Positions 39,179 to 40,028 of a stretch of DNA of 40,028 nucleotides are shown here, in pieces. The notes beneath the pieces were generated by a model that made no database searches, was not told the DNA's origin, and was given only the letters and a program-made list of their open reading frames with translations. Position 1 is the stretch's first letter. The number at the start of each line of letters is the position of its first letter. The stretch spans positions 1-40,028 of the forward strand of contig CAJOJJ010000017.1 in assembly GCA_905234925.1 (NCBI GenBank). Direction: 5' to 3'. The DNA is from an uncultured Endomicrobiia bacterium (GTDB taxonomy: Bacteria; Elusimicrobiota; Endomicrobiia; Endomicrobiales; Endomicrobiaceae). The translations under genes and the position numbers were made by a program.

Positions 39179-39300
39179 GCAAAAAAATCTAAAGCTTTTG
39201 GTTACGACTTTGTATTGGGTTCCCTTATGTGCCGTTCGCTACGCTTACACTACAGCACAACTGCGGTCGCCAAATACTTCGTCTTACCGACAAATCTTTC
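39179..39300 (-). repeat. 115-base repeat, copy B (inverted relative to 24060)
   Basis: The reverse complement matches copy A. The end stem here is GTATTTGG with CCCAATAC, while copy A has ATATTCAGC with GCTGAATAT, so pairing is largely kept although the bases changed. 39308-39342 then holds 7-base words (GATGTAC, AATGTAT, AATATAC, AATACAA). I see no gene between 39167 and 40028 apart from the RNA below. Confidence 0.7.
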
Positions 39301-39518: not shown

Positions 39519-39547
39519 TTGATTTTAAATTTATTTTGTGTTATATT
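39519..39547 (+). promoter_or_regulatory. Promoter of the structured RNA
   Basis: TTGATT (39519-39524), 17-base spacer, TATATT (39542-39547). Predicted start about 39554-39555. Confidence 0.6.
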
Positions 39548-39554
39548 ATTTTAA

Positions 39555-39798
39555 GCAATTGTAGTTTTTAAATAACTTAATATCAAATGTTTTTGGATCT
39601 TCTACGAGAGGTAGGAGACCGCTTTTGCAGAAATGTAAAAGCAGTTCACACTCCAAAAACAGTTTGCTGAATATTTATAAAAATAAATCAAAGGCTATGT
39701 TGATTTATTCTTATAGTTTTATCTTTCGCCCTTTTACGGGCGAAAGGCAGCGGCTGTGTATGTCGGGTGTGAACTGCGTACACAGCCTTTTTATTTTT
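39555..39798 (+). ncRNA. Unassigned structured RNA with three-way junction, pseudoknot and intrinsic terminator
   Basis: About 244 bases with its own promoter. P1: TGTTTTTGGA (39588-39597) pairs with TCCAAAAACA (39652-39661), 10 bp. Inside P1 are two hairpins: TCTTCTAC/GTAGGAGA (39598-39605, 39611-39618, one G-T pair) and GCTTTTGC/GTAAAAGC (39621-39628, 39635-39642). Downstream: AATAAATCAA/TTGATTTATT (39682-39691, 39700-39709) and CTTTCGCCC/GGGCGAAAG (39723-39731, 39738-39746). The terminator stem GGCTGTGTA/TACACAGCC (39752-39760, 39779-39787) is followed by TTTTT. Its 18-base loop contains GTGTGAACT (39767-39775), an exact complement of junction strand AGTTCACAC (39643-39651). No tmRNA, SRP, RNase P or 6S hallmark was recognised. 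A 63-codon frame crosses it but has no ribosome site. Confidence 0.72.
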
Positions 39799-39854
39799 AG
39801 TTCAATATGTGTTTGACCTTTCTGCCAAAAGCCCTCTCCTTTCGAAAAATCCAA

Positions 39855-40012
39855 AGAAAAAGATAGCTGAGGAGCTGAGAAGGTGATAAGCTGAGAAGTT
39901 TAAGGTAAAATTTTGCTTTGCAAAATTTCCTGTTAAAAATAAATACCGAAAACTTATCAGCCTATCAGCTAAGAAAAACGAAGTTTTTCGTTCTCAACTT
40001 ATCAGCTAAAAA
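39855..40012 (+). repeat. Mirrored repeat element, copy with GCTGA/TCAGC words, before the next gene
   Basis: Left words ATAGCTGA, GGAGCTGA, GAAGGTGA, TAAGCTGA (39863 on). Hairpin AAATTTTGC-TTT-GCAAAATTT (39908-39928). Core TTAAAAATAAATACCGAAA. Right arm ACTTATCAGCCTATCAGCTAA, hairpin GAAAAAC-GAA-GTTTTTC (39973-39989) and a second CTTATCAGCTAAAA. The window then ends in AAAAGGAG, clearly a Shine-Dalgarno for a gene just beyond 40028. Confidence 0.75.
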
Positions 40013-40028
40013 TAACAAAAGGAGAAAT

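Follow-up and report, generated by a model that had tools for sequence, protein, structure and literature searches.

Attenuation by alternative RNA pairing has been described for the repC leader of plasmid pT181, a copy-number attenuator working with a ctRNA, for which sequence-specific pairing defines incompatibility. In Clostridioides difficile, c-di-GMP riboswitches are located before pilin genes, and in other bacteria pilins and DNA-modification genes are often varied by phase switching. Sets of candidate structured RNAs from bacterial genomes and metagenomes are said to include orphan RNAs recognized, like the leader described here, by comparative genomics. We know of no natural attenuator family in which each copy carries a private pairing code. 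The leader RNA analyzed in this study is probably a cis-acting transcription attenuator with a copy-specific antiterminator, located ahead of an accessory gene cassette.

The leader RNA, its copies and the downstream genes

Within the window, the whole stretch of 40,028 nucleotides that was analyzed, the first-pass annotation described positions 39555-39798 as a promoter-driven stretch without a gene, rich in helices, in which a junction strand is complementary over 9 bases, extendable to 11, to the loop of the terminator hairpin. Each of these features was found again (all on the forward strand). The promoter is of sigma70 type, with -35 TTGATT (39519-39524), a spacer of 17 nt and -10 TATATT (39542-39547), and the stretch carries no long gene, its one 63-aa open frame looking like chance. 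The folding energy of the 244-nt RNA was -83.8 kcal/mol against -49.1 (sd 3.9) for shuffled sequences (z = -8.8), and P1, P2, P3, P4, P5 and the terminator hairpin were all present. Downstream of a conserved 5′ box, AACTTAATATyrAAT (39574-39588; alignments A1 and A3), which is unpaired in the models, follow the P1 5′ strand GTTTTTGGA (39589-39597, from fold and alignment), the hairpins P2 (39598-39617) and P3 (39621-39642), the code strand J (39641-39653, core 39643-39651), the P1 3′ strand TCCAAAAAC (P1′, 39652-39660) and its extension (P1′ext, 39661-39669), which is bulged in the window copy and a regular CAGTCG in most copies. P1′ may pair with the P1 5′ strand or, together with the extension, with T5, the terminator 5′ arm GCGGCTGTGTA (39750-39760, from fold and comparison of copies). 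In between lie the hairpins P4 (39674-39717) and P5 (CTTTCGCCC/GGGCGAAAG, 39723-39746), placed by the fold as were P2 and P3, and the terminator is completed by the loop strand PKL (39765-39777) and by the 3′ arm T3, TACACAGCC, plus a T-run (39779-39798). J and PKL were delimited by their pairing across copies. In the window copy, AGTTCACAC at 39643-39651 is the exact 9-base reverse complement of GTGTGAACT at 39767-39775; the match grows to 11 Watson-Crick pairs (39641-39651 with 39767-39777) and, at its longest, to 13 pairs including one G-U (39641-39653 with 39765-39777).

A nucleotide search identified the stretch as a repeat with many copies in its own genome and in one close relative. Using a covariance model, R1, built from the 5′ domain of the leader, we detected 28 copies in its own genome, the highest number found, 23 in G004, 12 in G007, 1-4 in most other members of the genus and 1-6 in other genera of the family, nearly all genomes compared being draft metagenome assemblies. 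A wider model, R2, applied over the whole class, added just two genomes, both Endomicrobiaceae, and the two members found there, which were outside the training set, had these pairings too, in one case with a mismatch. As judged from these searches, the leader is confined to Endomicrobiaceae (Elusimicrobiota), namely Ca. Ruminimicrobiellum and other genera, which are rumen bacteria. Rfam scans of the window and 18 homologous loci gave no family at gathering or permissive thresholds and no match to the T-box covariance model. The RNA is by this comparison a previously unlisted, putative RNA switch, a structured RNA outside Rfam, new as judged by the Rfam scan. The proposal of a new structured RNA with its own promoter and terminator thus stood, except that it is not a lone non-coding RNA but a 5′ leader. 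A phage or plasmid origin was rejected, with no match in phages, plasmids or viral contigs (the last searched by exact pattern), and so was an open frame upstream within the leader, since the copies do not conserve the ATG that precedes P1. At four loci of other genera (L148, L150, L151 and L153), a conserved AGGAG-N-TTG-TCG-TAT-ATG-TAA-like stretch, which could be a 4-codon leader peptide, lies some 40 nt before the 5′ box and is followed by a small hairpin. At L053:6843-7172 and L146:268-1114, two leaders stand in tandem and share one J, but the second of them has lost a loop strand to match it.

At least 11 of the 12 promoter consensus bases were present in 42 of 87 copies, against 12 of 1840 random control stretches; upstream promoters were weak or absent for the non-pilin copies of other genera. 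Most copies having enough sequence are followed by a gene start about 30-280 nt downstream. The pilin N-methylation motif was found in 37 of the 46 copies of G000, G004 and G007 with enough downstream sequence to be informative, compared with 92 of 820 control stretches picked at random within these same loci, which themselves bear pilins. The contig stops at a Shine-Dalgarno sequence, AAAAGGAGAAAT (40017-40028), after which sister copies go on with GCT-ATG of a pilin gene, so that the window ends 3 nt before that ATG; with the leader about 230 nt upstream of the pilin start, the gene of the window leader is almost certainly a type IV pilin just past the contig end. Pilins have been noted as the only appendage encoded by Endomicrobiaceae (PMC11257099). 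Elsewhere, the leaders precede an EcoRI-type methylase with a GmrSD/HNH protein, N6/N4 methylases, an Eco57I enzyme, a SNF2/helicase protein, an HTH+ImmA pair, glycosyltransferase 8, a polymorphic-membrane-like protein and lipoproteins, a set of genes without a pathway in common. A complete cassette of promoter, leader, pilin and terminator lies, in the genome of the window, between a PilZ-like gene and mutL, and is absent from this site in 10 of 10 relatives, which argues for gain or loss of whole cassettes.

Many copies show CTCC...GGAG complementarity in the stretch from the terminator to the start codon, predicted from the sequences to be able to hide the Shine-Dalgarno sequence, with CTCCTTT facing AAGGAG in some copies and CTCCAAA facing TTTGGAG in others. 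The corresponding element of the window, CTCTCCTTTC...TCCAAA (39834-39855), of a type that in many copies is complementary to the Shine-Dalgarno region, may represent a second, weaker layer of control. Two other repeats were observed nearby: a GCTGAGAAGCTGA-type repeat at 39860-40000, between leader and pilin in this genome, at which many contigs break, and, by eye, a roughly 90-bp dispersed repeat (GCGTA..GGCACATAAGGG) at about 39200-39290, which recurs at L169 (G004, before mutL) and is intergenic in both places.

Pairing of J with PKL and the two computed folds

J and PKL are complementary in about 78 copies. The best J:PKL duplex had a mean score of 25.4 in the 84 copies with enough sequence, against 14.9 for non-self pairs, and 89% of the J:PKL cells were paired, against 47% after shuffling and 33-44% when one strand was slid. 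The covariation sought for this pairing was also found, with a score of 1.05 against 0.23 for shuffled sets and 0 of 500 shuffles as high (68 distinct composites); since the register was picked by the best duplex, the non-self control is cleaner than the covariation count. With the register fixed, positions -10 to -3 were 94-100% Watson-Crick, and all four Watson-Crick pair types occurred at most core positions, position -3 being mostly A-U. The frequency of G-U was 0-1% at positions -10 to -3 and 38% at the edge position -1; in the remaining helices of these RNAs, each folded by itself, it was 7-11%, a value not fully comparable because MFE folding adds G-U pairs at the ends of helices.

The P1′ext:T5 duplex is present in essentially all copies and is altered on both sides in other genera, to AAATAATCG:CGATTATTT in one pair of genomes and to GTCGC:GCGAC in a second pair. 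Strict Watson-Crick matching of J and PKL would also be expected of an inverted repeat acting at the DNA level, as an invertible or recombining element with the RNA pairing as a by-product, and one leader pair, on contig C15, is indeed fused head to head at a shared code. In every other copy inspected, however, promoter, leader and gene keep a single relative orientation, the conservation of P1, terminator and T-run is that of RNA elements, and G-U pairs are retained in P1′ext:T5; we consider this explanation very improbable.

Two alternative folds were obtained by computation. For RNA cut after PKL, the MFE structure contained J:PKL in 78 of 78 copies, together with P1′ext:T5 in 75 of 78 and with P1 open in all; for the full-length RNA, it contained P1 and the terminator in 72 of 78. 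These predictions are thermodynamic only and ignore kinetics and pseudoknots. The antiterminator fold was predicted in 96% of cases with the own J, 49% with the J of another locus and 38% without PKL, indicating that, on paper, the code decides the fold at the critical moment. As P1′ and its extension pair with T5 while J pairs with PKL, both duplexes are nested in one long helix and a pseudoknot, which could form only in the terminated RNA, is not required. The pseudoknot originally proposed between junction and terminator loop is therefore real as a pairing but not needed as a pseudoknot, the nested antiterminator excluding both P1 and the terminator; the accompanying guess of a termination switch matches the computed folds, in which antiterminator and terminator are mutually exclusive.

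With an intrinsic terminator located between promoter and gene, the attenuator is proposed to work as follows. RNA polymerase would start at the strong promoter and make P1-P2-P3, P4 and P5. On the emergence of T5 and PKL, the strand J-P1′-extension would pair with T5-PKL in a nested helix of about 20-25 pairs, which would open P1 and keep T5 from T3; if T3 captured T5 instead, P1 would re-form and transcription would stop before the gene. J:PKL would be the outer half of the antiterminator and would differ from copy to copy, so that each leader should open mainly with its own partner strand. The two folds may in this way control readthrough in the cell, for which a kinetic advantage has to be assumed because the terminator fold is favoured in the full-length RNA.

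After termination the RNA may retain a J:PKL pseudoknot, and its formation could instead be the role of the pairing: J would bind the loop of the closed terminator, giving a stable finished RNA and promoting termination or resisting decay. J and PKL face each other in the state with P1 and terminator too, and PKL takes up nearly the whole loop. On geometric grounds, however, 9-12 pairs in a loop of about 12 nt should not all form with the stem fully closed, and the same strands together with P1′ext:T5 give a nested helix without strain. A terminator lock of this kind is conceivable but unlikely.

Diversity of the pairing codes

The identity of J and PKL between copies within a genome was 0.53-0.55, against 0.51 for random sequences and 0.60-0.99 for all other segments, and even leaders 90-93% alike outside the code can differ in it. 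This copy-by-copy difference, the most unusual property of the RNA, was invisible to the first-pass annotation because only one copy was in view. It also bears on a reading as a metabolite riboswitch, with P1-P2-P3 as the aptamer and a small molecule stabilizing P1 and hence termination. Riboswitches are as a rule built with a P1 strand that is exchanged with an antiterminator, and the 5′ box and the P1/P3 sequences are conserved, but no part of the RNA varies more than the junction, few of whose unpaired bases are conserved, and the controlled genes share no pathway; such a riboswitch is in our opinion improbable.

Among 57 loci in three genomes no code occurred twice, although random codes alone would also give almost no duplicates. 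Between genomes, eight pairs were identical at all 11 code positions. Exact sharing usually joins leaders that are also best matches in their bodies, and common descent therefore explains much of it. Two other ideas were rejected: that a genome avoids codes resembling each other, the Hamming distances being those of independent random codes and nothing beyond, and a tie of the code to gene type or place, identical codes across genomes being mostly in different contexts with different genes. A trans partner was likewise rejected, the code common to G010, G001 and G020, the one code searched, being present only in leaders and in one isolated match, about the level of chance. The fused pair of contig C15 (L039:5693-5951, in the window's own genome) consists of two leaders of different type sharing the code GAGGTTATGAAC, J of one being PKL of the other; it looks like recombination at the code repeat, and the same code recurs in G007 (L125).

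On the attenuator reading, code diversity may insulate the copies from one another. Alternatively, terminated leaders might expose J or PKL and act in trans only on newly made transcripts that carry the same code, a locus-specific feedback that would forbid two loci with one code, as for plasmid antisense RNAs within an incompatibility group. The absence of a shared code among the 57 loci, with within-genome codes at random distance, the recurrence of exact codes between genomes, the strong promoters, which would make the terminated leader abundant, and the near absence of G-U from the code core are all compatible with such feedback. On the other side, duplicates are hardly predicted from random codes, no extra trans copy of the code searched was found, and antisense promoters are not enriched (30 of 77 copies against 47% of control stretches); trans feedback is a proposal of small probability. 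The broader idea of orthogonal RNA self/non-self codes, by which up to 28 paralogous leaders of one cell would each be read by their own partner strand alone and, once terminated, feed back on their own locus, making same-code cassettes mutually exclusive, is speculative and rather unlikely; if true, it would mean that accessory genes on the chromosome have an incompatibility system. Should the proposed switch work in this way, it would show how a bacterium can keep some two dozen strong promoters and leaders, nearly identical to each other, free of cross-talk, and it would provide a supply of ready-made orthogonal transcription switches. In addition, the function of pilin arrays in an uncultured group would become testable.

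Comparison with known systems

The leader resembles the c-di-GMP riboswitches as a structured leader before type IV pilin genes, but it gave no covariance-model match to them and also precedes methylase, glycosyltransferase and lipoprotein genes. With the expression platforms of riboswitches and T-boxes it shares a P1 3′ strand common to the 5′ domain and the antiterminator, which excludes an intrinsic terminator before the gene; in contrast to them, no conserved ligand pocket, tRNA-binding element or Rfam match was seen, and the antiterminator has as its outer half a helix that is hypervariable and specific to each copy. It differs from plasmid ctRNA systems in that an antisense promoter is not enriched, at the frequencies given above. 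As in the pT181 repC leader, attenuation would depend on alternative, sequence-specific pairing, but here both pairing strands are located in one RNA, which is chromosomal and present in multiple copies.
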